From the NCBI GenBank assembly GCA_027858315.1, contig JAQICV010000037.1, positions 1 to 39,293 of the forward strand: a stretch of 39,293 nt of DNA, written 5' to 3'. This document shows, piece by piece, positions 27,082-39,293 of this stretch. A program made the position numbers and the translations under genes. The notes beneath the pieces were generated by a model, which searched no databases, was not told the origin of the DNA, and saw only the letters and a list, made by a program, of their open reading frames with translations. Each line of letters begins with the position of its first letter. The stretch's first letter is position 1. The stretch is from Candidatus Woesearchaeota archaeon (lineage in GTDB: Archaea > Nanobdellota > Nanobdellia > Woesearchaeales > UBA583).

Positions 27082-28239
27082 ATGAAATTAAAACAAATAC
27101 CTCAAGATTTTATTGTAGATGAGATTTTTGACTTAGACATTTTCAAAGATAGAGATGAAGAAAGAAAACAACCTTATTATTACTTTAAACTAACTAAAAC
27201 AAACTACAATCAAATGAATGCACTTCAAAAAATTGCAAGAACATTCAATACATCTAAAAAATTAGTACACTTTTCTGGAATAAAAGACAAAGTAGGAGTA
27301 ACATCTCAATTAGTATCAGTTTATGGCATCAATGAAGAAAATTATCAAACAAATTTAGATTTTTTTAACAACCAAGAAGATCTAAAACTTGAATTCATCG
27401 ATAAATTCAAATCAAGAATAAATTTAGGAGATAATCTCGGAAATAGATTTTCAATAACTGTAAGAGACTTAGAAGATGAAGATTTAGAAAGAGCAAAAAA
27501 GAACTTAATATCTTTACAAAAAGATGGAGTTCTAAACTACTTTGATGAACAAAGATTTGGTTACGCAAACAATTCACACATTGTAGGAAGATATGTCCTT
27601 CAAAATAATTTACAATCGGCAGTAAAAGAAATACTAACCTCACTTCCAAACAAGACGCAATCAGAATTAATGATAAACTTCGTAAAAACTGTAAAAGAAA
27701 ATTGGGAAGGAATAGTATCTCAAGATTTAGAAATGATTGACAAGGTACTTGAAGCCACTCCTAGATATCTAGAAAACGAACAAAAAATTCTACAGCATCT
27801 GAAAAAACATAAAAATGACTTTCCAGGAGGATTTAAAAGAATTCACAAAAAAATTAGAACTCTATACATAAACGCATATCAATCATATATATTCAATGAA
27901 ACAATATTAAAATTAAAGGAAGAAAATTTATTAGAGAATTATAAAGAACTCTCATTAATAGATTTCAACTCAAATGAAACTCTAGATGCTAAAATTCTCG
28001 AAATTGTATCAAAAATGATTCAAGAAGATAATTTAACATTTGAAAATTTCAAACTACCTTCGATGCCTGAATTAAAACTAACTGATGTAAAAAGAGATAT
28101 TAGAATATTTCCTAAGGATTTAACTATTCAAGAAACATCTGATGATGACTTAAATGAGAATAAAAAGAAAGTAATCATCACATTTGATTTAGGTTCAGGT
28201 CAATATGCAACTAATGTTGTAAAGCAGTTATTTTTATAA
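27082..28239 (+). CDS. truD: tRNA pseudouridine synthase D (TruD)
   Basis: TruD isomerises uridine 13 of tRNA to pseudouridine. The 385 aa carry the N-terminal signature KQIPQDFIVDEIFD, KTNYNQMNALQKIAR, the catalytic Asp in HFSGIKDKVGVTSQ, NYFDEQRFGYAN, and the TRUD-domain segment YINAYQSYIFNE. It ends with the typical LP/F-T-rich strand VIITFDLGSGQYATNVVKQL. Length fits archaeal TruD/Pus7 proteins. It has its own leaderless promoter that overlaps the end of radC, so co-expression with radC by read-through is possible but not required. Confidence 0.97.
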   Translation: MKLKQIPQDFIVDEIFDLDIFKDRDEERKQPYYYFKLTKTNYNQMNALQKIARTFNTSKKLVHFSGIKDKVGVTSQLVSVYGINEENYQTNLDFFNNQEDLKLEFIDKFKSRINLGDNLGNRFSITVRDLEDEDLERAKKNLISLQKDGVLNYFDEQRFGYANNSHIVGRYVLQNNLQSAVKEILTSLPNKTQSELMINFVKTVKENWEGIVSQDLEMIDKVLEATPRYLENEQKILQHLKKHKNDFPGGFKRIHKKIRTLYINAYQSYIFNETILKLKEENLLENYKELSLIDFNSNETLDAKILEIVSKMIQEDNLTFENFKLPSMPELKLTDVKRDIRIFPKDLTIQETSDDDLNENKKKVIITFDLGSGQYATNVVKQLFL

Positions 28240-28269: not shown

Positions 28270-28947
28270 ATGAAACAATCCAAAATTTTAATTGCAATGC
28301 CTGCATATAATGAAGCAAAAGTCATTTTTGATGTGATAAAAGATATTAAGAAAGAAGGTTATAAAAATATTCTAGTAATTGATGATTGTTCAAAAGATGA
28401 TACTTTTAATGTTGCAAAAAAAGCTGGCGCAACAGTTTTAAAACATGTAGTGAATAGGGGAGCTGGGGCAGCAACAAATACTGGATTAATCTACGCAAAA
28501 CGAAATAATTACGACTATATTGTATTCATAGATTCAGATGGTCAACACTCACCAAAAGAAATTAAAAAACTTATATTACATGCAAATAAATATGATGTAG
28601 TAATAGGTTCTAGAATGGTAGGTTCTCTAAAAAATATGCCCTTTCAAAGAAGAGCAGTAAACTTTGCTGGAAGTTTCATAACATATTTAATATTCGGATT
28701 ATTTGTAAGAGACTCTCAAAGTGGTTTTAAGGTATTCTCTAGAAATGCAATCAATAAGATAAATATCTCATTTGATAGATATGAATTCTGCTCAGAAATA
28801 ATTGGTGAAATATATAAAAACAAGCTATCTTACAAGGAAATTCCAATAAAGATCATCTATTCAACACATTCATTAGGAAAAATTGATAGTGGTCAGAGCG
28901 TATTTAATGGATTTAAAATGATTTTAAGATTTATTTTCAGATTATAA
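28270..28947 (+). CDS. Family 2 glycosyltransferase (polyprenyl-phosphate sugar synthase-like)
   Basis: The 225-aa GT-A fold enzyme resembles dolichyl-phosphate mannose/glucose synthases, which load a sugar from a nucleotide donor onto a lipid carrier at the cytoplasmic face. Motifs are AMPAYNEAKVIFDVI, NILVIDDCSKDDT, VNRGAGAATNTGL, the metal-binding FIDSDGQHSPKEI, and DSQSGFKVFSRNAI. The C-terminal membrane helices of some homologues are absent. It stands 51 bases before the promoter of the main glycan operon, and DUF2304 proteins often accompany such synthases. It therefore probably supplies the lipid-linked sugar for that pathway (inference). Confidence 0.9.
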   Translation: MKQSKILIAMPAYNEAKVIFDVIKDIKKEGYKNILVIDDCSKDDTFNVAKKAGATVLKHVVNRGAGAATNTGLIYAKRNNYDYIVFIDSDGQHSPKEIKKLILHANKYDVVIGSRMVGSLKNMPFQRRAVNFAGSFITYLIFGLFVRDSQSGFKVFSRNAINKINISFDRYEFCSEIIGEIYKNKLSYKEIPIKIIYSTHSLGKIDSGQSVFNGFKMILRFIFRL

Positions 28948-28969
28948 AATTAAAAACACAATAAAAATA

Positions 28970-28977
28970 TTTATAAA
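28970..28977 (+). promoter_or_regulatory. TATA box of the glycan operon
   Basis: TTTATAAA, centre 25.5 bases before ATG 28999. No other convincing promoter is seen down to 38926, as the genes overlap or abut. Confidence 0.55.
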
Positions 28978-28998
28978 GTATATACAATCTAAAATACT

Positions 28999-29337
28999 AT
29001 GGAATTTATAACTATCTTTTTTACAGTAATGAGTGTAGTTGTTCTTGGATACTTATTTAAGATATTTAAATCAAACAAAAGATTGCCGATAATTTTAGAA
29101 TTATTTTATGTTGGAGCATATGGATTTGTTTTCACAGTTTTCTTATATCCTAATATTTTAACTATAATTGAGAATATTTTAGGAATACAATCCGCAATTA
29201 ATTTTGTTGTATATTTGAGTATATTTGTATCATATTTGATAATTTTTTTATTGTATACAAATAAGGAGAAACAACGAGAAGAGATTACTAAACTTACTAG
29301 AGAGATTGCATATTTAAAGGATGAAAAAAGAAAATAA
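28999..29337 (+). CDS. DUF2304-like small membrane protein
   Basis: The 112-aa protein has three hydrophobic helices (IFFTVMSVVVLGYLFKIF; LFYVGAYGFVFTVFLYPN; VVYLSIFVSYLIIFLLY). A cytosolic tail with heptad character ends ITKLTREIAYLKDEKR, the usual C-terminal mark of DUF2304 proteins. These typically sit beside polyprenyl-phosphate sugar synthases, and their own function is unknown. Here it lies directly after such a synthase and starts the long glycan operon from a leaderless promoter. The next gene begins inside its last codons (17-nt overlap). Confidence 0.75.
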   Translation: MEFITIFFTVMSVVVLGYLFKIFKSNKRLPIILELFYVGAYGFVFTVFLYPNILTIIENILGIQSAINFVVYLSIFVSYLIIFLLYTNKEKQREEITKLTREIAYLKDEKRK

Positions 29338-30160
29338 TTCTCCTATAATCTCGGTTGTAATGCCAGTTTACAATTCTGGGAAATTTTTAGAAAAAGCAAT
29401 AAAAAGTATTCTAAATCAAACATATAAAAACTTCGAATTCATAATCATAGATGACTCTTCAAAAGATAAATCTCAATCAATAATTCAAAAATACAAAAAA
29501 CAAGATAAAAGAATAAAATTCTACAAAACTAAAAGAAATTCAGGTTGCACTCATGCTTTAAACATTGGTTTAACATATGCAAAAGGCAAATACATTGCAA
29601 GAATGGATGCCGATGACATCTCAATTAAAACCAGATTTGAAAAACAACTAAATTTCATACAAAAAAATGATTTAGATGTTTGTGGAACAAATATTGATAT
29701 GATAAATTTTCAAGGAATTAATATGGGAAAAAGGGACTATATTTCAAATATCAAAAGATCAATAAAATATGAATCTCCATTTGCTCACCCTACAGTTATG
29801 TTCAAAAGAGATTTAATTATTAAATATGGTCCATATGATGAAAGGTATAGAGTTTCTCAAGACTACGATTTATGGTTAAGGTTCTTTGCAAATCATGCCA
29901 AATTCGGAGTACTAAATGAATATCTACTAAAATACAGAATTCATCCTGAATCTACTACTAAATATAAAAAATTAAAAACAACAATTAGGACAGTTCTTAA
30001 AATTCAAAAGAATGCAAAGTCAAATTATAATGTAAAATTTGGTTTTCTAGGTAATCTTAGTATATTGTTCAAGCATTTTTTACTATTGCTTCCAAATAGG
30101 TTAATTCTCTTCTTATTCGAATTATATCTAAAAATAAAGAGGATGATGAAATGGTTCTAA
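29321..30160 (+). CDS. Family 2 glycosyltransferase
   Basis: The 279-aa GT-A enzyme is of the type that transfers a sugar to a growing surface polysaccharide or glycoprotein glycan. Motifs are SVVMPVYNSGKFLEKAIKSI, NFEFIIIDDSSKDKSQSI, NSGCTHALNIGLTYAKGKYI, the catalytic metal site ARMDADD, and VSQDYDLWLRF, where the base-type Asp region lies. The C-terminal part is basic with a hydrophobic patch (FLLLLPNRLILFLFE) that may touch the membrane. It overlaps both neighbours (17 and 10 nt), so it is part of one transcript. Confidence 0.92.
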   Translation: MKKENNSPIISVVMPVYNSGKFLEKAIKSILNQTYKNFEFIIIDDSSKDKSQSIIQKYKKQDKRIKFYKTKRNSGCTHALNIGLTYAKGKYIARMDADDISIKTRFEKQLNFIQKNDLDVCGTNIDMINFQGINMGKRDYISNIKRSIKYESPFAHPTVMFKRDLIIKYGPYDERYRVSQDYDLWLRFFANHAKFGVLNEYLLKYRIHPESTTKYKKLKTTIRTVLKIQKNAKSNYNVKFGFLGNLSILFKHFLLLLPNRLILFLFELYLKIKRMMKWF

Positions 30161-31311
30161 AGAATAAAAAAATATTATTTGTAGTATCTTCTTTAAGAAG
30201 AGGAGGAGGGGCAGAAAATTCGGTATCAATTGTGGTAAGGGAGTTGAAAGATAGAGGACATAATGTAGAGCTTCTAACATTCTACAGATTTGAAAACGAA
30301 TATGATATAGGAAAAGTGAAGCATAATTCTCTAGGATTCAAATACAAAAGCAATCCTATAACAAAGATGATATATTTTTCAATCATTTTCCCATTACTAA
30401 TCAAGAGATTTCTAAAACAAAACAAATATGATTTAATTATAGCAAATGCTGAAGATGCAAATTTAATATTATCTTTAACTAGATTATATAGTACTAAAAA
30501 ATTCAAACTATGGTTAGTCGTAAGAAATAACTACCTCTCATTATACAAAGGTATATACTCAAAAATCTCAATAGCACTACATAAAAAATCCGACAAAGTA
30601 ATTGCAGTTTCTGAGGCTATGGAAAAAGATCTAAAAAATTTAAATATTCACAATTTAGATTTTATTTACAATCCATTAGATTTTGATGAAATAAAAGAAA
30701 AGTTAAGAGAAAAAATAACTAATGAGTCTGAAATTAAGTTATTTAAAGAGAATAAAGTAATATACTTAAACGCAAGATTATCAAAACAAAAAAACTATTT
30801 CTTCATACTCGATATATTCAAAGAACTTATAAAAAATAATGAAAAATTAAAATTAGTAATTTTTGGGGCAGGCCCTGAAGAACAAAAAATTAAAAATTAT
30901 GTCAAACAATTAGAAATAAAAGAAGATGTAGTTTTTATGGGAATTAGAAACAATGTATTCAAATATCTAACAAAATCTCATCTTGCAGTTCTACCCTCAA
31001 ATCATGAAGGATTCCCAAGAGTACTTTTAGAAAATATTGCTTGTGGTATTCCAACTATTGCAAATGATTGTAAATATGGTCCGTGTGAGATATTAAATGA
31101 GACAAGTTATTTGAAGTTTAAAGACAATAAATTCGAAAAAGCAAAATATGGTTTATTAGTTCCATTTAATAACAAAAAAGAATATGTCAATGCAATTCAA
31201 TACTTATTAGACAACAAAAAAGAATACAATAAATATAAGGAAAAATCAAAAGAACGAGCAAAGGATTTTGACATAAAAAACATCATTAGGAAATGGGAGA
31301 GAAGAATATGA
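30151..31311 (+). CDS. Family 4 glycosyltransferase (GT-B)
   Basis: The 386-aa protein has a two-Rossmann GT-B layout. N-terminal LFVVSSLRRGGGAENSV binds the acceptor. The C-terminal donor half shows NARLSKQKNYFFILDIF, VIFGAGPEEQKIKNYV, the E-x7-E signature HEGFPRVLLENIACGIP, and NDCKYGPCEILNE. The last is similar to N-acetylhexosaminyl- or galactosyl-transferases of surface glycans, but sugar specificity cannot be read. A ribosome site GAGGATGAT lies 2 bases upstream of ATG 30151. It overlaps the next gene by an ATGA junction. Confidence 0.92.
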   Translation: MVLKNKKILFVVSSLRRGGGAENSVSIVVRELKDRGHNVELLTFYRFENEYDIGKVKHNSLGFKYKSNPITKMIYFSIIFPLLIKRFLKQNKYDLIIANAEDANLILSLTRLYSTKKFKLWLVVRNNYLSLYKGIYSKISIALHKKSDKVIAVSEAMEKDLKNLNIHNLDFIYNPLDFDEIKEKLREKITNESEIKLFKENKVIYLNARLSKQKNYFFILDIFKELIKNNEKLKLVIFGAGPEEQKIKNYVKQLEIKEDVVFMGIRNNVFKYLTKSHLAVLPSNHEGFPRVLLENIACGIPTIANDCKYGPCEILNETSYLKFKDNKFEKAKYGLLVPFNNKKEYVNAIQYLLDNKKEYNKYKEKSKERAKDFDIKNIIRKWERRI

Positions 31312-32360
31312 AAACAATAACTTTCATCCAACCAAGAAACCACAATAATGTGAAAGATTTTATAGAAGAACTCTCAAATGATTTTAAAATAGAGTTAATA
31401 ACTTACGATAATAATAAATTTCTTAAGAGTACCAATATTAAATATACAAAAATTCAAAATATAACTATCTCTAAAAATAAACAAATATTCATCCCAAATC
31501 CTTTTCAACTATATTCTTTAATTCAAAAAGATAAAATTATCACAATAAAGAATCTTAATTCTTTAGAGTCATTATTCTCATTAATGATCTGTAAGATTAA
31601 AAAAATTGAGCCAATGGTATTCATACAGAAAATCAATTTTCCTAAAACAATAATAATAAATAAAATATATATTAAAATATACAAATCTTTATTGAAAAAT
31701 GCAACACTAGTTAGTGCAACAAGAATTGGTCAAAAAGAATCTAAAAGATTTTCAAAGAATCCATTATTTTTACCTTTTGGAATTTCAATAAATGACAAGA
31801 TAAAGAAACAAAAACATGAGACAATAAATATTATTTGCAATTCTAAAATTCAAAAGAGAAAAAATGTATTTGAGTTAATAAAAGAATTCGAGAAATTATC
31901 TAAAGAATATGAGAAAATAAGACTAAAAATTGTAGCAAGAGAGATAATTGATAATGATTATTATTATGAGATATTGAATTTTATAAGAGAAAAGAAATTG
32001 GAAAAAAAAGTTTCAATAGAAATAGGTATTTCTCTAGAGGAAGTATTTGAAATCTATAAAAAATCAGATATATACATATTAGTAAGTTACGATGACCCAG
32101 CAGTGTATTCGCATATAGAAGCAATGAATTATGAACTTCCTGTAATATTAAACAAATACAACGGAACCAGTGACTACATTGAAGATGGCAAAGATGGAAT
32201 AATAATCAAAAATAAGAACTTTAGTGAAATTTATAAAGCGCTAGAAAAAGTAATTACTAGTGATTATAAGAAAATGGGTAAGCTAGCAAAAAACAATTTA
32301 AAAATCAATTATGATGCAAAGCTTATTGTTAAAAAGTTCTTAGAGGTAATTAAAAAATGA
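31308..32360 (+). CDS. Family 4 glycosyltransferase (GT-B)
   Basis: I start this gene at ATG 31308, which overlaps the previous stop as ATGA. A longer frame begins 15 bases upstream and is unnecessary. The 350-aa product has the GT-B C-terminal half: NIICNSKIQKRKNVFELIKE, then ISLEEVFEIYKKSDIYILVS and DDPAVYSHIEAMNYELPVIL. The usual first Glu of the E-x7-E signature is replaced by Asp (D-x7-E). The N-terminal acceptor half is diverged. The next gene again starts with an ATGA overlap. Confidence 0.87.
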   Translation: MKTITFIQPRNHNNVKDFIEELSNDFKIELITYDNNKFLKSTNIKYTKIQNITISKNKQIFIPNPFQLYSLIQKDKIITIKNLNSLESLFSLMICKIKKIEPMVFIQKINFPKTIIINKIYIKIYKSLLKNATLVSATRIGQKESKRFSKNPLFLPFGISINDKIKKQKHETINIICNSKIQKRKNVFELIKEFEKLSKEYEKIRLKIVAREIIDNDYYYEILNFIREKKLEKKVSIEIGISLEEVFEIYKKSDIYILVSYDDPAVYSHIEAMNYELPVILNKYNGTSDYIEDGKDGIIIKNKNFSEIYKALEKVITSDYKKMGKLAKNNLKINYDAKLIVKKFLEVIKK

Positions 32361-33157
32361 AATATTATGATAAAAAAAACAATCGTTTAGTTTATGTAAG
32401 TAGTCAAGCAACTTCTAATTTTTGGGATGAACAATGGTCTAAAAAAGACATCAAAAAAATATATGCTCAGAAAATTTATTCTTTTGATCCACTAATTAAA
32501 TTCACAAAGAAATATCTACCAAATAAGAAGTCTATTATTCTTGAATGTGGATGTGGTATGGGACAAAATGTATACAAATTAAATAAAGTTGGTTATAAAA
32601 ATACAATTGGTTTAGATTATGCAAAAGAGACAATTAAATTAATTCAAAAATTCAAGCCAAAATTAAATGTTGTGTTAGGAGATGTAATGAAATTGCCATT
32701 TAAAGATAATCATTTTGATGGTTATTGGTCATTTGGAGTAATAGAGCATTTTTATGATGGATATAAACCAATTGCCGATGAGATGTCAAGAGTAGTGAAA
32801 AAAGATGGTTATTTGTTTCTAGTTTTTCCACATATGTCAAAATTAAGAAAATTAAAATCCAATTTAGGGTTCTATTCTAAATGGTCTGGAGAAAATAAAA
32901 AGGATTTTTATCAATTTGCATTAGATGAGAAATTAGTTACAAAAAGATTTGAAGAATTAGGATTTAAATTAGTAGAAATTGCATATCGTGATGGATTTAA
33001 GGGACTAAAAGATGAATCAGGTATAATCACACCTATTCTAAGTAAAATATATGGCTCAAGTAATTTTTTTGCAAAGGGGAGATCATTTGTAATATCAAGA
33101 CTCTTCTCAAGAGTATCTTCTCATTCAATTCTTCTTGTATTAAAAAAGGTTAAGTAA
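32357..33157 (+). CDS. Class I SAM-dependent methyltransferase
   Basis: The 266-aa enzyme has motif I ILECGCGMGQNVYKL, an acidic ribose-binding end to strand 2 (TIGLDYAKETIKL), VVLGDVMKLPFKDNHFD and GVIEHFYDG, followed by a YLFLVFPH strand. It belongs to the Methyltransf_11/25 type found in surface-glycan loci, which often O-methylate sugars, but the acceptor is not readable. A ribosome site (GAGGTAAT) lies before ATG 32357, which overlaps the previous stop. One base separates it from the next gene. Confidence 0.9.
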   Translation: MKYYDKKNNRLVYVSSQATSNFWDEQWSKKDIKKIYAQKIYSFDPLIKFTKKYLPNKKSIILECGCGMGQNVYKLNKVGYKNTIGLDYAKETIKLIQKFKPKLNVVLGDVMKLPFKDNHFDGYWSFGVIEHFYDGYKPIADEMSRVVKKDGYLFLVFPHMSKLRKLKSNLGFYSKWSGENKKDFYQFALDEKLVTKRFEELGFKLVEIAYRDGFKGLKDESGIITPILSKIYGSSNFFAKGRSFVISRLFSRVSSHSILLVLKKVK

Positions 33158-33158
33158 A

Positions 33159-33977
33159 ATGGAAACAATAAATAATAGCTGTAAAAATTGTAAATATTTA
33201 GACAAAAAGAATAAAAAATGCAAAATTGAGAGTGGTTCTCCAATTAGAAAATATGTAATTGGAATAAATAAGAATTTTGTTGAATATTTAAGTAAACAAA
33301 AAAAGGAAGTATCAGTTTTAGAGATTGGTTGTGGTAGTTGGTCATACTTGAAAGAAAATTTACCCAAAAATGTTAAATGGCATGGGATTGACCCTTTAGA
33401 TATTAAAGATGGTAAGAAATCTATTGCAACCAAAAAAGGCTCAGTTGAAAAAATTCCTTATAATGATAATATGTTTGACTTCGTATTTTCTAATCAATCC
33501 ATGGAGCATTGGATTGAATATGGAGTGACATTTAACAAAGCACTAAGCGAAATATCAAGAATCCTAAAAATTAAAGGTGAAGCTCATATCAACGTCCCAA
33601 TTTTTAGACATGGTCACAAAGTCTTTGTGAAAGGTGATAAAAAAGAGATAATAAATCTATTCGATAGCAAATCATGGAAAATAGAAAAGTATGAAGAGTG
33701 GAGAAAAGATCCAAGACCTCTAGAAATATATGAAGGTTGGAGAGCTCACAGGGTTCTATGTAATTATTTTAAAACTAAAAAATCTTCATGGATACTCAAT
33801 CTAGTGATTTCTAAGAAAAAGAATCAGATGCCTACATTAAAAGATAAATTTGCATATAATATTACCAAATTAAATTACTATATGTTGCCATTAAATATTA
33901 GATTAATAATGCATTATGGAGTATTGACTTTCTTATCCTGTATTAGTAAAAAGTTTTTTGGAGGCTCAAAAAAATGA
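33159..33977 (+). CDS. SAM-dependent methyltransferase with N-terminal Cys motif
   Basis: The 272-aa protein combines a short N-terminal cysteine motif (SCKNCKYLDKKNKKCKIESG: C-x2-C-x9-C) with a class I methyltransferase core: VLEIGCGSWSYLKENL, GIDPLDIKDG, VEKIPYNDNMFDFVFSNQS, MEHWIEYG. The core is complete enough for activity. Three cysteines could hold a metal together with a further ligand, but I cannot see which. The tail (about 230-272) is hydrophobic and basic, suggesting membrane contact. It overlaps the next gene by ATGA, and GGAGG (33961-33965) is the ribosome site for that gene. Confidence 0.88.
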   Translation: METINNSCKNCKYLDKKNKKCKIESGSPIRKYVIGINKNFVEYLSKQKKEVSVLEIGCGSWSYLKENLPKNVKWHGIDPLDIKDGKKSIATKKGSVEKIPYNDNMFDFVFSNQSMEHWIEYGVTFNKALSEISRILKIKGEAHINVPIFRHGHKVFVKGDKKEIINLFDSKSWKIEKYEEWRKDPRPLEIYEGWRAHRVLCNYFKTKKSSWILNLVISKKKNQMPTLKDKFAYNITKLNYYMLPLNIRLIMHYGVLTFLSCISKKFFGGSKK

Positions 33978-34660
33978 AAAAATTATTAATTAAGGTAATT
34001 AATTTAATAAGAAGATCTCTTCTGAGAAAACCATTATTCTCATTTTCTATATTCTTACATAATATCTCATACTCAATGATAAAGATTTTTATAACAATCC
34101 CAAATGAAAAAAATCAGCCAAAACATAAGATAGTGAATTATTTCAAATTCTTCACAGATAATGTAGGAAAAAGTGATACAGTATTAGATATAGGTTGTGC
34201 TGAAGGTTATCTTGCATATGAACTATCGAAAAAATGCAAAAAAGTTGTTGGAATTGAGATACTCGACAAGAAGATTAAGGTTGCAAAAACTAGATACAAA
34301 AGAGATAATTTAATTTTTGTGTCAGGCGATGCAACCAAATATGATTACTCTGAATTTAAAATTAAAAAATTTGACAAAATTATTCTCTCAAATGTTTTAG
34401 AGCACATAAAATACAGAGTTAAGTTCTTGAAAAGTTTGAGTAGTTTAAGTGATACTATATTAATCAGAGTTCCAATGATAACAAGGGATTGGCTTAGTGT
34501 CTACAAAAAAGAAAATGGTTATAACTACAAATTAGACCCAACACATTACACTGAGTATACATTAGAACAAGTCTATGATGAAATGGATAAGGCAGGTTTT
34601 AGAGTTGAATCATATCATATTAATTTTGGAGAGTTTTATGGAGTGGTTGTTAGAAAATGA
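33974..34660 (+). CDS. Class I SAM-dependent methyltransferase
   Basis: The 228-aa enzyme has motif I VLDIGCAEGYLAYELSKK, strand-2 acidic residue in VVGIEILDKKIKVAKT, DNLIFVSGDATKYDYSEF, and KIILSNVLEHIKYRVKF. It ends with the family-typical YGVVVRK. About 40 residues N-terminal to the core are basic and hydrophobic (LLIKVINLIRRSLLRKP), suggesting attachment to the inner membrane face. It has ATGA-type overlaps with both neighbours. The substrate is unknown. Confidence 0.9.
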   Translation: MKKLLIKVINLIRRSLLRKPLFSFSIFLHNISYSMIKIFITIPNEKNQPKHKIVNYFKFFTDNVGKSDTVLDIGCAEGYLAYELSKKCKKVVGIEILDKKIKVAKTRYKRDNLIFVSGDATKYDYSEFKIKKFDKIILSNVLEHIKYRVKFLKSLSSLSDTILIRVPMITRDWLSVYKKENGYNYKLDPTHYTEYTLEQVYDEMDKAGFRVESYHINFGEFYGVVVRK

Positions 34661-35691
34661 AGAAGATTTTTATTTTTGGTAAAGATGGTATAGGTTGGTC
34701 AATAGATAAAGATAGAGAACATCTAATTGATGGAATACAAAATACTAAAGGTTGTACATTAACTCAAAATATTTTTTCCTCAAATATAATTATATTCGTA
34801 TGGTGGAGTTTGTTAGACAATTTTAGATTCAAATATTTTAAATTTTTATTCAAAAATAAAATAATCGTAGCAACAGCTACTAATAATCTGTCTTCTTATG
34901 AAAACAAATTGAAAAAAGTTTTAAGTTATGTAAATTATTGGATTTGTGCTAATGAAAAACAGAAGAAAACTCTAATTGAATTAGGTATTAATAAAAGTAG
35001 GATTCTATACAATCCATTCTATGTTGATGAAACAACTTTCAGAGATTTGAAGTTATCTAGAAAAGATATTTGTAAACAAGTTGATATTGATTACAAATTA
35101 ATTAAAGATAAGTTCTTGATTGGTTCTTTTCAAAGAGATAGTCTAGGGTCTGACTTAAGGAAACCAAAATGGCAAAAAGGTCCAGAACTATTAGTTCAAA
35201 TTTTAAAAGGTTTAGAAACAAAGGATATTACTTTAGTTCTTGCAGGTCCGAGAAGGCATTATTTAATTAATCAATGTAAAAAAAATAAAATACCATATAT
35301 TTTTGTTGGTGATGAATCTAGAATCTTAAATAATGTTGATGATTTAATGGTAAATAACTTATCTTTAGAAAAAATAAATTTACTCTATAACTTAATTGAT
35401 ATGTATCTGGTAACATCAAAGTCAGAAGGTGGTCCTAAAGCTGTTATTGAATCTGCTTTGACTAATACGTCAATATTATCAACTGATGTAGGTTTTGCGA
35501 AAGAGATGCTTAATAAGTATAGTATTTGTAAAGATGTGTCAGAGTTTATAGTAAAACTAAATAGAGTAAAGGAAGACGGGGAAAAAAAAGAGAATTTATA
35601 TATAAAAAATTATGATAAAGTCTCAAAAACTAATAACTATGATTCTTTCAAGAAGAGAATTAAGAAAATTGTAGAGGTAGTGTCTAAATGA
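34657..35691 (+). CDS. Family 4 glycosyltransferase (GT-B), diverged
   Basis: The 344-aa protein begins FGKDGIGWSIDKDREHLI, a start seen in surface polysaccharide glycosyltransferases. The donor half keeps ITLVLAGPRRHYLINQCKKN and KSEGGPKAVIESALTNTSIL, the E-x7-E signature. A central RILYNPFYVDETTF marks the linker between the two Rossmann lobes. The WWS segment (FVWWSLLDNFRFK) in the N-terminal lobe is unusual. ATGA overlaps on both sides place it in the same transcript as its neighbours. Confidence 0.87.
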   Translation: MKKIFIFGKDGIGWSIDKDREHLIDGIQNTKGCTLTQNIFSSNIIIFVWWSLLDNFRFKYFKFLFKNKIIVATATNNLSSYENKLKKVLSYVNYWICANEKQKKTLIELGINKSRILYNPFYVDETTFRDLKLSRKDICKQVDIDYKLIKDKFLIGSFQRDSLGSDLRKPKWQKGPELLVQILKGLETKDITLVLAGPRRHYLINQCKKNKIPYIFVGDESRILNNVDDLMVNNLSLEKINLLYNLIDMYLVTSKSEGGPKAVIESALTNTSILSTDVGFAKEMLNKYSICKDVSEFIVKLNRVKEDGEKKENLYIKNYDKVSKTNNYDSFKKRIKKIVEVVSK

Positions 35692-36719
35692 AGATTCATA
35701 TATTATTTGAATTTCAGCAAGGGGCTTGGGGAGGAGGTAATCAATTCCTAAAAGCTTTAAGAGATTATTTTATAGAGAGAAATGTTTATGAAGGAGATAT
35801 AGATAATGCAGATATAATATTGTTTAATAGTCACCAAGAATTGGAGACTCTTATAAAAATAAAATTACAGTTTCCAGAGAAATTATTTGTTCATCGTATT
35901 GATGGTCCAATCTTTAAAATTAGGGATAAGGATTTAGTGATTGATAAGATGATATATAAAATAAATGATGATTTTGCTGATGGAACTATATTCCAATCAG
36001 TATGGAGCCAGGCAGAAAATTTCAAATTAGGTTTGGATAATAATGCGGATTCAACAATCATAATAAATGCACCAGACCCCACATTGTTTTATCCTGTAAA
36101 AAATAAAAAATTAGGAAAAAAAATTAAGATTATTATAACCTCTTGGTCAGCAAATATGAATAAAGGATTTGAGATATATAAATGGTTAGATGAAAACTTG
36201 AATTTTAGTAAATATGAGATGAGTTTTGTAGGGAATTCACCAATCAAATTTAAAAATATAAAGTTAATTGGTGCGATGGATAGTGGTAAGTTGGGTTCGT
36301 TATTAAGGACAAAAGATATTTTTATAACTGCATCTAGAAAAGATCCTTGTTCTAATTCATTAATAGAGGCAATGCATTCTGGACTTCCATCAATCGCGTA
36401 TAATGATGGTGGTCATCCTGAGATTGTTGGAAGTGGAGGTGAAATATTTGATTCAAAGGATCAAATACCTCAGTTATTAGAAGATATTGTGCGAAATTAC
36501 TCGAAGTATTCTAAGAATATAAGTTTACTAAATCTAAATGAAGTAGGTGACAAGTATTATAAATTTCTTTCTAAAATTCATAAAAAACATAAATTGGATC
36601 CAAAACAAATCAGTAATATGAAATATTACAAAAGTATATTATACATTAAGTATTTTTTATTTATTTCAAAAATGACTAAAGTATTAAAATTAAAGAATAC
36701 ATTAAGAAATAGAAAATGA
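35688..36719 (+). CDS. Family 4 glycosyltransferase (GT-B)
   Basis: The 343-aa GT-B protein has an N-terminal glycine-rich loop (QQGAWGGGNQFLKAL), RIDGPIFKIRD, TIIINAPDPTLFYPV at the interlobe linker, IIITSWSANMNKGFEIYKWL, and the signature ASRKDPCSNSLIEAMHSGLP, where Asp replaces the first Glu, followed by YNDGGHPEIVGSGGEIF. The GWGGG-like loop and D-P-C-S-N-S-L-I-E segment are common in glycosyltransferases of extracellular polysaccharides. A ribosome-like GAGGTAGTG precedes ATG 35688. The end overlaps the next gene by ATGA. Confidence 0.9.
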   Translation: MKIHILFEFQQGAWGGGNQFLKALRDYFIERNVYEGDIDNADIILFNSHQELETLIKIKLQFPEKLFVHRIDGPIFKIRDKDLVIDKMIYKINDDFADGTIFQSVWSQAENFKLGLDNNADSTIIINAPDPTLFYPVKNKKLGKKIKIIITSWSANMNKGFEIYKWLDENLNFSKYEMSFVGNSPIKFKNIKLIGAMDSGKLGSLLRTKDIFITASRKDPCSNSLIEAMHSGLPSIAYNDGGHPEIVGSGGEIFDSKDQIPQLLEDIVRNYSKYSKNISLLNLNEVGDKYYKFLSKIHKKHKLDPKQISNMKYYKSILYIKYFLFISKMTKVLKLKNTLRNRK

Positions 36720-37390
36720 ACAAAATATTGAAAAAAATTAATTATTATTTGAATTCTACTTATAGAAGAAGACAAATAGATGTTATATTGAATAAGAATA
36801 AGTCTGTGTTTAAAGGGGTAGTTCTAGATATTGGTGGAAGAGATCGAGGACAGTTTGTTAAGCCTAAGAGTAAAGTTGATAAGTGGTTATTTGCAGATAT
36901 TGAAGATAAATTTAGTCCTGATTTGGTTTTGGATGTATCTAATATGAAAAATGTAAAATCTAATAGTATTGATATTATCCTCGCAGGAGAATTATTTGAA
37001 CATGTACAAGAAATCGAGAAAGGGATTTCAGAATGTTATAGGGTCTTGAAAAAAGGAGGCAAACTGTTGATTACCATTCCTTTTCTATATCCAATTCATG
37101 CTGACCCTTGGGACTATCAAAGGTGGACGAATGAAAAATGGAAATTAGAACTTAATAAGTTAGGTTTCAAGATGAAAAAATTTGAAGTAACTGGCTATTA
37201 CTTTTTAGTATTATCAGACATGTTGAAATCATTTTTTAAGATATTGCCTTGGGGAGTAAGACATTTGTTCTTATTAATATCTTTCCCATTTCTAGAATTA
37301 GTGTACTTCTTTGATAGGACTAAGTTTGTACGAGATAATCGAAAATTAAATAAGTATCATAGTGGATACTTTATTATAGTAGAAAAATGA
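36716..37390 (+). CDS. Class I SAM-dependent methyltransferase
   Basis: The 224-aa enzyme has a slightly diverged motif I (VVLDIGGRDRGQFVKPK) lacking the usual G-x-G-x-G. It then has LVLDVSNMKNVKSNSIDIIL, AGELFEHVQEIEKGISECYR and LLITIPFLYPIHADPWDYQR. The LYPIHADPWDYQRWT stretch typifies methyltransferases of polysaccharide loci. The C-terminal region is hydrophobic (HLFLLISFPFLELVYFF). No ribosome site is visible, and ATGA overlaps on both sides suggest re-initiation or coupling. Confidence 0.89.
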   Translation: MNKILKKINYYLNSTYRRRQIDVILNKNKSVFKGVVLDIGGRDRGQFVKPKSKVDKWLFADIEDKFSPDLVLDVSNMKNVKSNSIDIILAGELFEHVQEIEKGISECYRVLKKGGKLLITIPFLYPIHADPWDYQRWTNEKWKLELNKLGFKMKKFEVTGYYFLVLSDMLKSFFKILPWGVRHLFLLISFPFLELVYFFDRTKFVRDNRKLNKYHSGYFIIVEK

Positions 37391-38280
37391 GTAAGAATAT
37401 AGATTTAATTTGGGATAAAGAAGTATATAATGACGATTATTCATTTGTTGTTAACTTGAAACAGAAAAATTCAAAGTCTTATTTTATTAATGATTGTTTG
37501 AAAAAAACAAATAAGAAGAAAATTCGTGTTTTAGAGATTGGTTGTGGTTATGGTCAAAATTTATTTCCAATTTCTGAAAATGTTTATGAGTGTATTGGAA
37601 TAGATCCTTCTAAAAAGTCAATACAACTTGGAAGAGATACTATTAAGAGATTGAACTTAAAAAATGTCAAATTAGAGTTGGGTGTTGGTGAAAAACTTCC
37701 TTTTGAAAATGATTACTTTGATCTGATTATTTGTTTTGACGTTTTAGAACATGTAGCAGATCCAGATAAAGTAATTGTTGAAGCAATGAGGGTTTTGAAT
37801 AAAAGTGGTATATATTTATTTTTTACAGGAATTAATAATAAATTCAATTATTATTATTTTAAGCATTTATTTAGTTTTAAAAAAAGGAAAGAATTAAAGA
37901 CATATATCAATATGATTAGAAAAGAGTATAAACTTGAAGAGGATTCCAATTTGTGGGTAAATGATATAAGTCATCATCATATACATAGATTTGAAAAAAG
38001 TTACTTTAAGGATATTTGTAGTAAATATAATTACAATGATCAATATTTCTACAAGGGATTCTTGATTAGTCCTTTAATTAGTACGTCAATTAAGTTTCTA
38101 AAGAAGGTAATCCCAAATAAAAACAAGAGTAATAAGGGTATTAAAGGTAAAGTGCAGATGGTTAGGTATAGGAAATCCAGTTTTATAGGTTCGAGTTTAT
38201 ATTTTATAGGTATGTCTGAGATTTTAACTTTTGGTAGGTATTTTGGAGGTGGAGTATATGGCATTTTTAAGAAGGAATAA
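37387..38280 (+). CDS. Class I SAM-dependent methyltransferase
   Basis: The 297-aa enzyme has motif I VLEIGCGYGQNLFPIS, CIGIDPSKKSIQLGRDT, the YF-D-LII strand with CFDVLEHVADPDKVI, and VLNKSGIYLFFTGINNKFN. The C-terminal third has a basic region and a glycine-rich aromatic tail (LTFGRYFGGGVYGIFKKE). It overlaps the next gene by 23 bases. Together with its neighbours this is the fifth of six methyltransferases in one operon. Confidence 0.9.
   Translation: MSKNIDLIWDKEVYNDDYSFVVNLKQKNSKSYFINDCLKKTNKKKIRVLEIGCGYGQNLFPISENVYECIGIDPSKKSIQLGRDTIKRLNLKNVKLELGVGEKLPFENDYFDLIICFDVLEHVADPDKVIVEAMRVLNKSGIYLFFTGINNKFNYYYFKHLFSFKKRKELKTYINMIRKEYKLEEDSNLWVNDISHHHIHRFEKSYFKDICSKYNYNDQYFYKGFLISPLISTSIKFLKKVIPNKNKSNKGIKGKVQMVRYRKSSFIGSSLYFIGMSEILTFGRYFGGGVYGIFKKE
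38245..38250 (+). promoter_or_regulatory. Ribosome binding site setting the start of the last operon gene
   Basis: GGAGGT, 7 bases before ATG 38258 and inside the preceding gene. It favours ATG 38258 over the upstream in-frame ATG at 38231. Confidence 0.6.
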
Positions 38281-38926
38281 GCATAACAATTTCGAGAAAT
38301 ATGCATTACAAAGAGCAATGGATGGACAAGTTAGTAATAAATTTAGAGAGATTTTTAATAAAAATATAGATATTAAAGATAAAAAATTAAAAGTATTGGA
38401 TTCAGGTTGTGGGGATGGTAAATATTATTTTTTTTTAAAAAATATATTTAAGGATGAAAATATTTTTGGTGTTGAAGTTTCTAAAGAACGTATAAAGCGA
38501 TGTCATGAAAAAGGTTTTAAAAATGCAACTTATATTGAAGTAAATCAAGAATTACCATTTAGGAATAATCTTTTTGATGTTATTATTTCAGATCAGATTA
38601 TAGAGCATATATCAAAAGAGAATATTCCTTTCTATCTAAGTGAATTGAGGAGAGTGCTTAAACCGAAAGGGAAGATTATTTTATTGACTCCTAATTATCC
38701 TATTAAAAGATTGTATGATGTAACCTATGCGTTTTTATTTTTCAGATCTAAAGGATTATTTGATGATCCTACCCATGTTACATTCTTTTCATTCAAAAGT
38801 CTGAGAAAAACTTTAGGTAAATATTTTAAAAATATAGAATTGATTTCTTTAGGAGGGATATATTATAATATTCTTTTTAAGAATAATTTTTTTAGTAGAA
38901 AAATTTTAGCTATTATAAGAAAGTAA
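38258..38926 (+). CDS. Class I SAM-dependent methyltransferase
   Basis: The 222-aa enzyme has motif I VLDSGCGDGKYYFFLK, FGVEVSKERIKRCHEKG, ELPFRNNLFDVIISDQIIEH, VLKPKGKIILLTPNYP and FDDPTHVTFFSFKSLRKTL. The last is the D-P-x-H-x-x-F-S block of glycan methyltransferases. The start is set by a GGAGGT ribosome site. It is the last gene of the operon and ends one base before the stop of the convergent remnant at 38928-39209. Confidence 0.9.
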   Translation: MAFLRRNKHNNFEKYALQRAMDGQVSNKFREIFNKNIDIKDKKLKVLDSGCGDGKYYFFLKNIFKDENIFGVEVSKERIKRCHEKGFKNATYIEVNQELPFRNNLFDVIISDQIIEHISKENIPFYLSELRRVLKPKGKIILLTPNYPIKRLYDVTYAFLFFRSKGLFDDPTHVTFFSFKSLRKTLGKYFKNIELISLGGIYYNILFKNNFFSRKILAIIRK

Positions 38927-38927
38927 T

Positions 38928-39209
38928 TTATTTAAACATTTTCTTATTTTTTTTGATTACAATGAAAAGCATTTGTTGATAATTCCGAATTATAGGGATT
39001 AGGCTAATTAAATCTTCTAATTTTGATCTTAGTTCATGTCTTCTTATTCGGAAGAAAAACATATTTGAGAAAGTCTTATATTGTTCTATTTTCATATTTA
39101 TTTTCTTAGAGTAATAATCTAATTCGGAAAAAGATAAGAAATCATGTCCTCCCCAGAGTAATTTATTTTTATTTAAATTTGGCTTCATCCGATTGAGTAT
39201 AAACAACAA
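38928..39209 (-). pseudogene. Probable C-terminal remnant of a SAM methyltransferase
   Basis: The 93-codon frame starts with tandem TTG codons directly after an in-frame TAG, or at ATG 39188. It resembles the C-terminal quarter of a class I methyltransferase: KLLWGGHDFLSFSELDYYSK, i.e. the H-D-F-x-S-F-x-E-L block after strand 5, and the final strand IRNYQQMLFIVIKKNKK. The whole SAM-binding core (motifs I-IV) is missing, and the upstream sequence to the window edge is AT-rich with no such frame. It is therefore most likely a decayed fragment, although a small independent gene cannot be excluded. Confidence 0.45.
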
Positions 39210-39254
39210 CTAATTATCTATTTTTATCTAAAAATTTATTTTTTGAATAAAAAA

Positions 39255-39273
39255 TCTAAATTGAAAATTTAGA
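39255..39273. repeat. Perfect 8-bp inverted repeat near the right edge
   Basis: TCTAAATT-GAA-AATTTAGA at 39255-39273. It lies in an AT-rich 84-bp tail (39210-39293) in which I see no gene. It could be a terminator or chance palindrome. Confidence 0.3.
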
Positions 39274-39293
39274 ATAAAAGAAATATTCTTATG

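Follow-up and report, generated by a model that had tools for sequence, protein, structure and literature searches.

The run of co-directional genes at positions 28270-38926 is probably the glycosyltransferase and methyltransferase end of an AglB-dependent (agl-type) N-glycosylation cluster in a Woesearchaeota-type DPANN archaeon. Systems of this kind are known; what is notable here is the order-wide link between a GT2-DUF2304 pair and AglB (STT3), together with the number of methyltransferases. The window, i.e. the whole stretch of 39,293 nucleotides that was analyzed, is the entire contig C37 of a 1.77-Mb, 105-contig, 95% complete assembly. AglB lies outside it on a separate contig (C17), its link to the run being unassembled in this genome.

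The gene content is as originally predicted: all the open reading frames are present, and the 13 genes comprise two GT2 glycosyltransferases, one DUF2304 protein, four GT4-like glycosyltransferases and six class I methyltransferases. By Pfam the order is GT2, DUF2304, GT2, two GT4, three methyltransferases, two GT4-like and three further methyltransferases, with the methyltransferases matching Methyltransf_11, 23 and 31 and the four GT4-type genes matching Glycos_transf_1. The description of the run as nearly unbroken also holds, since 10 of the 12 junctions overlap (by 4-23 bp) and the other two have gaps of 1 bp and 51 bp, the latter lying between the first GT2 and DUF2304. For the last methyltransferase, ATG 38258 is a more plausible start than the in-frame TTG 38231. 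A promoter and terminator scan, made with bacterial models that are not applicable to archaea, gave nothing above chance. The features of the run and its flanks are:

27082-28239, + strand: TruD (PF01142), left neighbour conserved in the genus; an anchor, outside the pathway
28270-28947, + strand: GT2 (PF00535), DPMS/PpgS/AglJ-like, proposed primer
28970-28977, + strand: TATA-like box TTTATAAA, candidate archaeal promoter, spotted by eye some 26 bp ahead of the ATG start codon of DUF2304
28999-29337, + strand: DUF2304 small membrane protein (PF10066, 61 bits), GacJ-type partner of the GT2
29321-30160, + strand: second GT2 glycosyltransferase (PF00535, 1.5e-39)
30151-31311, + strand: GT4 glycosyltransferase (PF00534/PF13439)
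31293-32360, + strand: GT4 glycosyltransferase (PF00534)
32357-33157, + strand: MT1, class I SAM methyltransferase (PF08241; no NCBIfam cut-off reached)
33159-33977, + strand: MT2, class I SAM methyltransferase (PF08241)
33974-34660, + strand: MT3, class I SAM methyltransferase (PF13847/PF13489)
34657-35691, + strand: divergent GT4-like glycosyltransferase (PF00534, 1.1e-9)
35688-36719, + strand: divergent GT4-like glycosyltransferase (PF00534, 1.8e-11)
36716-37390, + strand: MT4, class I SAM methyltransferase with atypical motif I DIGGRDRG (PF08241)
37387-38280, + strand: MT5, class I SAM methyltransferase (PF08241, 4.8e-22)
38258-38926, + strand: MT6, class I SAM methyltransferase (PF08241, 9.4e-17)
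38928-39180, - strand: truncated open reading frame, possible C-terminal remnant of a further (seventh) methyltransferase, cut at the insertion sequence; weak
39181-39293, - strand: 3' end of an IS5-like insertion sequence (113-bp repeat, transposase PF01609/IS5), which ends the contig

The GT2-DUF2304 pair is what ties the run to protein glycosylation. A DUF2304 match was found in 52 of 60 relatives, as a single strong match per genome in most genomes searched, and a GT2 lies directly upstream in 46 of 52 DUF2304 loci of the order (window included). In 26 of them STT3/AglB is the next gene upstream on the same strand, mostly overlapping or within 55 bp, and PF02516 confirmed the assignment in all eight STT3 proteins checked. 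The same STT3-GT2-DUF2304 triple also turns up in Candidatus Woesearchaeota records; the search of named genomes with a GT2 profile returned mostly generic GT2s from many phyla and was useful mainly for those records. The original prediction of a glycan locus, possibly for a glycoprotein glycan, is thus well supported by the tie between the pair and an oligosaccharyltransferase across the order. In two relatives the STT3/AglB protein carries a C-terminal PPIC-type peptidyl-prolyl isomerase (rotamase) domain (L085:11695-14853 and L068:13779-17048).

The best NCBIfam match of the first GT2 is PpgS, a polyprenyl-phospho-N-acetylgalactosaminyl synthase (NF058614), at 138 bits, a long way short of the equivalog cut-off (370); AglJ follows at 98 bits against a cut-off of 325. 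Its top PDB match is the dolichol-P-mannose synthase 5mlz (E 3.6e-12). A search of the genome for an initiator, covering the AglH-type phosphoglycosyltransferase family PF00953, found none, and the first GT2 is therefore proposed as the chain primer. In Gram-positive bacteria the GT2-DUF2304 pairs GacI/GacJ, EpaI/EpaJ and WpsA/WpsB provide polyprenyl-phosphate sugars; pairs like GacI/GacJ make polyprenyl-P-GlcNAc, for GacI/GacJ itself the DUF2304 partner enhances the synthase, and WpsA/WpsB act as primers of an oligosaccharide, which is extended by other glycosyltransferases (PMC8327497). The window pair might instead supply a dolichyl-phosphate monosaccharide that is added extracellularly, in the manner of AglD/AglS or GtrB, with another enzyme priming the oligosaccharide. 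This would be a variant of the preferred explanation, compatible with the AglB model, and the dolichol-P-mannose synthase-like structural match of the GT2 points toward it, as does a large multi-pass protein, possibly a GT-C enzyme, beside the flippase on contig C42. The priming role known for WpsA/WpsB-type pairs, however, and the negative PF00953 search argue against it, and we regard it as possible but doubtful.

On the AglB-dependent reading, the first GT2 and its DUF2304 membrane partner would make a dolichyl-phosphate-linked first sugar, which the second GT2 and the four GT4 enzymes would elongate on the cytoplasmic side. The six methyltransferases would O-methylate the sugars, at hydroxyls or at uronate carboxyls. 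The lipid-linked chain would be turned outward by a Wzx-type flippase, and AglB would move it onto asparagines of surface proteins. That AglB and the flippase belong to this pathway, what the methyltransferases act on and in which order the steps occur are all inferred.

Comparison within the genus suggests what the rest of the cluster looks like. TruD lies near GT2-DUF2304 in three same-genus genomes (G002, G004 and G005), and in G004 and G005 TruD-GT2-DUF2304 forms one boundary of a region with AglB, a flippase of the Wzx type, a UDP-GlcA-type epimerase, further sugar genes and three methyltransferases. In G005 (contig C26) this stretch of about 27 kb starts with AglB, an Lrp-like regulator, a UDP-glucose dehydrogenase, the epimerase and the flippase, and continues through glycosyltransferases, the three methyltransferases, heptose-type genes, a GT9 and an MBOAT acyltransferase up to DUF2304-GT2; TruD follows after roughly another 3 kb. 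The G004 region has the epimerase, AglB, an acyltransferase, the flippase, three methyltransferases, glycosyltransferases, PMM and ManC before DUF2304-GT2-TruD, and non-glycan genes there separate AglB from the flippase. One group in the G005 locus (L053:5228-7793), made up of the heptose-type sugar genes (an SIS isomerase, a PfkB-cytidylyltransferase fusion and a HAD phosphatase-like protein) and the GT9, is not what one usually meets in an archaeal N-glycan cluster. What lies between the conserved ends varies from genome to genome, and the glycosyltransferase and methyltransferase set is a variable cassette beside a fixed TruD-GT2-DUF2304 anchor.

The genome's own counterparts of the missing parts lie on other contigs. 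AglB, UDP-glucose dehydrogenase and epimerase on C17 are orthologues of the AglB end in the relatives (AglB 46-48% and epimerase 68-71% identical to those of G005 and G004, dehydrogenase 64%), and the C17 AglB bears the WWDFG motif. Downstream of it is an apparently secreted protein, at least 523 amino acids long, that runs off the contig (L128:7497-9066); it has only two N-glycosylation sequons, and since it has no Pfam or NCBIfam match, its possible identity as a surface-layer protein is only a guess. The flippase on C42 has as its sole significant match among the compared genes the flippase of the G005 locus. Adjoining it is a 698-amino-acid protein (L127:1553-3649), multi-pass by eye and with no Pfam match, possibly a GT-C enzyme, distant relatives of which sit in other glycan loci (L068, L081 and L094).

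The original prediction had remarked that no flippase, polymerase or nucleotide-sugar gene was in view. That is true of the window but probably reflects where the contig stops: the flippase and nucleotide-sugar genes absent from the window are present in the same-genus loci and on C17 and C42, and the window, a complete contig, ends in an IS5-like element at which the assembly breaks off. The last 113 bases of the window recur at the ends of other contigs, and positions 1-117 are the 5' end of another copy of the same element, which encodes a DDE transposase and whose copies are flanked by 8-bp target duplications. Matching duplications pair nine contig junctions, among them the left end of the window with the right end of C41. 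For the right end of the window, no contig ending in the insertion sequence showed the 8-bp duplication expected of a partner (TTAAATTT). The unpaired ends found are this one 3' end and five 5' ends. Of those five, C42 alone carries glycan genes close to the break; with its mismatched flank it is no more than a candidate for the right-hand neighbour of the window. The truncated reading frame cut by the element scores a weak 8.6 bits against a profile of the locus methyltransferases and has no Pfam match.

Might the product be a free surface polysaccharide, such as a capsule or exopolysaccharide repeat unit, with the GT2-DUF2304 pair decorating the polymer as GacI/GacJ or WpsA/WpsB do and with no N-glycan involved? 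The characterized pairs do serve cell wall polysaccharides (PMC8327497), and the heptose-type sugar genes and MBOAT acyltransferase of G005 are typical of polysaccharide loci. A further glycan locus of the genome, on C36, also favours this reading. Yet the pair adjoins STT3/AglB order-wide, AglB falls inside the syntenic region of both informative same-genus genomes, and no polymerase was recognized, so that we consider a free polysaccharide improbable. The C36 locus (L113, L049 and L114) contains a flippase, three GT4 and one GT2, along with two AMP-ligase-like proteins and a FemAB/GNAT-like protein; given this second locus, more than one surface glycan may exist.

As to the methyltransferases themselves, six of the genome's 14 Methyltransf_11 matches fall in the run, which is 0.6% of the genome (binomial p about 1e-10), so that their clustering is not due to chance. 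Methyltransferases occur near the DUF2304-GT2 anchor in 23 of the 52 loci, and the six of the window are the highest number (next 3, median 0), counted within about 10 kb of DUF2304, where loci that end at contig ends give only lower bounds. Pairwise identity among the six is 23-34%, which rules out recent duplication as their origin. Against NCBIfam none reached the cut-off of a specific family among the matches listed (UbiE/UbiG, CFA, KsgA and others). The predicted models of MT4 and MT5 are of moderate confidence (pLDDT 73 and 67); both show generic class I methyltransferase folds, MT5 has Foldseek matches to generic class I enzymes including the sugar O-methyltransferases RebM and AtmM, and the match lists of both mix phosphobase, small-molecule and sugar methyltransferases. 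Lipid, quinone or RNA families, placement in which would have told against a glycan role, were thus not indicated by these cut-offs; profiles and folds alike were generic class I, and neither NCBIfam, PDB sequence matches nor Foldseek discriminated a substrate. That some or all of the enzymes act on a lipid, quinone, RNA or small molecule and sit in the run by coincidence is very unlikely, for even though class I profiles and folds do not discriminate substrates and methyltransferases of quinones, lipids and phosphobases are among the best matches, no equivalog cut-off of such families was reached among the matches listed, the genes alternate with glycosyltransferases in overlapping fashion, and methyltransferases recur around the same anchor in those 23 loci. 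We infer that they O-methylate the glycan. Judged from sequence, heavy methylation is plausible and stays only that, because no methyltransferase reaches a specific-family cut-off. More speculatively, the product could be an AglB-linked N-glycan with at least six different O-methyl groups set by six mutually divergent enzymes, nearly fully O-methylated and hydrophobic, with DUF2304 an unrecognized order-wide partner in the AglB pathway of Woesearchaeota; this stronger form is a tentative suggestion.

If the AglB-dependent reading is right, it offers a tangible way into the protein glycosylation of Woesearchaeota, little covered in the literature searched. The order would have an STT3-GT2-DUF2304 core, with interchangeable glycosyltransferase and methyltransferase cassettes altering the cell surface between related species. 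Since it is the surface that a host, virus or partner cell meets, differences in methylation could affect recognition and escape. The GT2-DUF2304 pair, studied in Gram-positive cell walls, would also gain a context in archaeal N-glycosylation. In our incomplete literature search no description of an archaeal association between GT2-DUF2304 and AglB was found, the match concerning Gram-positive cell walls.

No previously undescribed surface structure has to be invoked for the run, and that suggestion has largely given way to the AglB-dependent reading, because archaeal N-glycosylation loci with methyltransferases are already known. The Haloferax pathway includes the methyltransferase AglP (PMC4335974); the window enzymes are known only as generic Methyltransf_11 proteins. 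Methylated sugars have been reported in archaeal N-glycans as 3-O-methylmannose in Methanothermus fervidus, methylated GalA in Halobacterium and a 5-O-methyl sugar in M. maripaludis (PMC2952790), but these known glycans carry few methylated residues each, and a six-methyltransferase N-glycan cluster was not found described in the literature searched. The window pair resembles GacI/GacJ, EpaI/EpaJ and WpsA/WpsB in having a GT2 followed immediately by DUF2304 and, by analogy, in its proposed lipid-phosphate-sugar synthesis; it differs in being linked to an archaeal oligosaccharyltransferase rather than to a rhamnan cell wall, and its activity is a predicted one. In Haloferax aglJ and aglB lie at opposite ends of the cluster (PMC5867893), and the window cluster, as reconstructed from the same-genus loci, would likewise resemble that of Haloferax volcanii and Halobacterium in having a Dol-P sugar synthase-like GT2 at one end and AglB at the other. 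The run has a DUF2304 partner and GT4-type elongating enzymes, unlike the agl cluster with its mainly GT2-type enzymes, and six methyltransferases as opposed to one, and its AglB part is not assembled beside it. Both have several glycosyltransferases and SAM methyltransferase in or near the cluster (aglJ...aglP...aglR...aglB, aglM) and, if the genes of the same-genus loci and of C17 and C42 are counted in, would also share a flippase and UDP-glucose dehydrogenase, and in both the gene content varies between close relatives.
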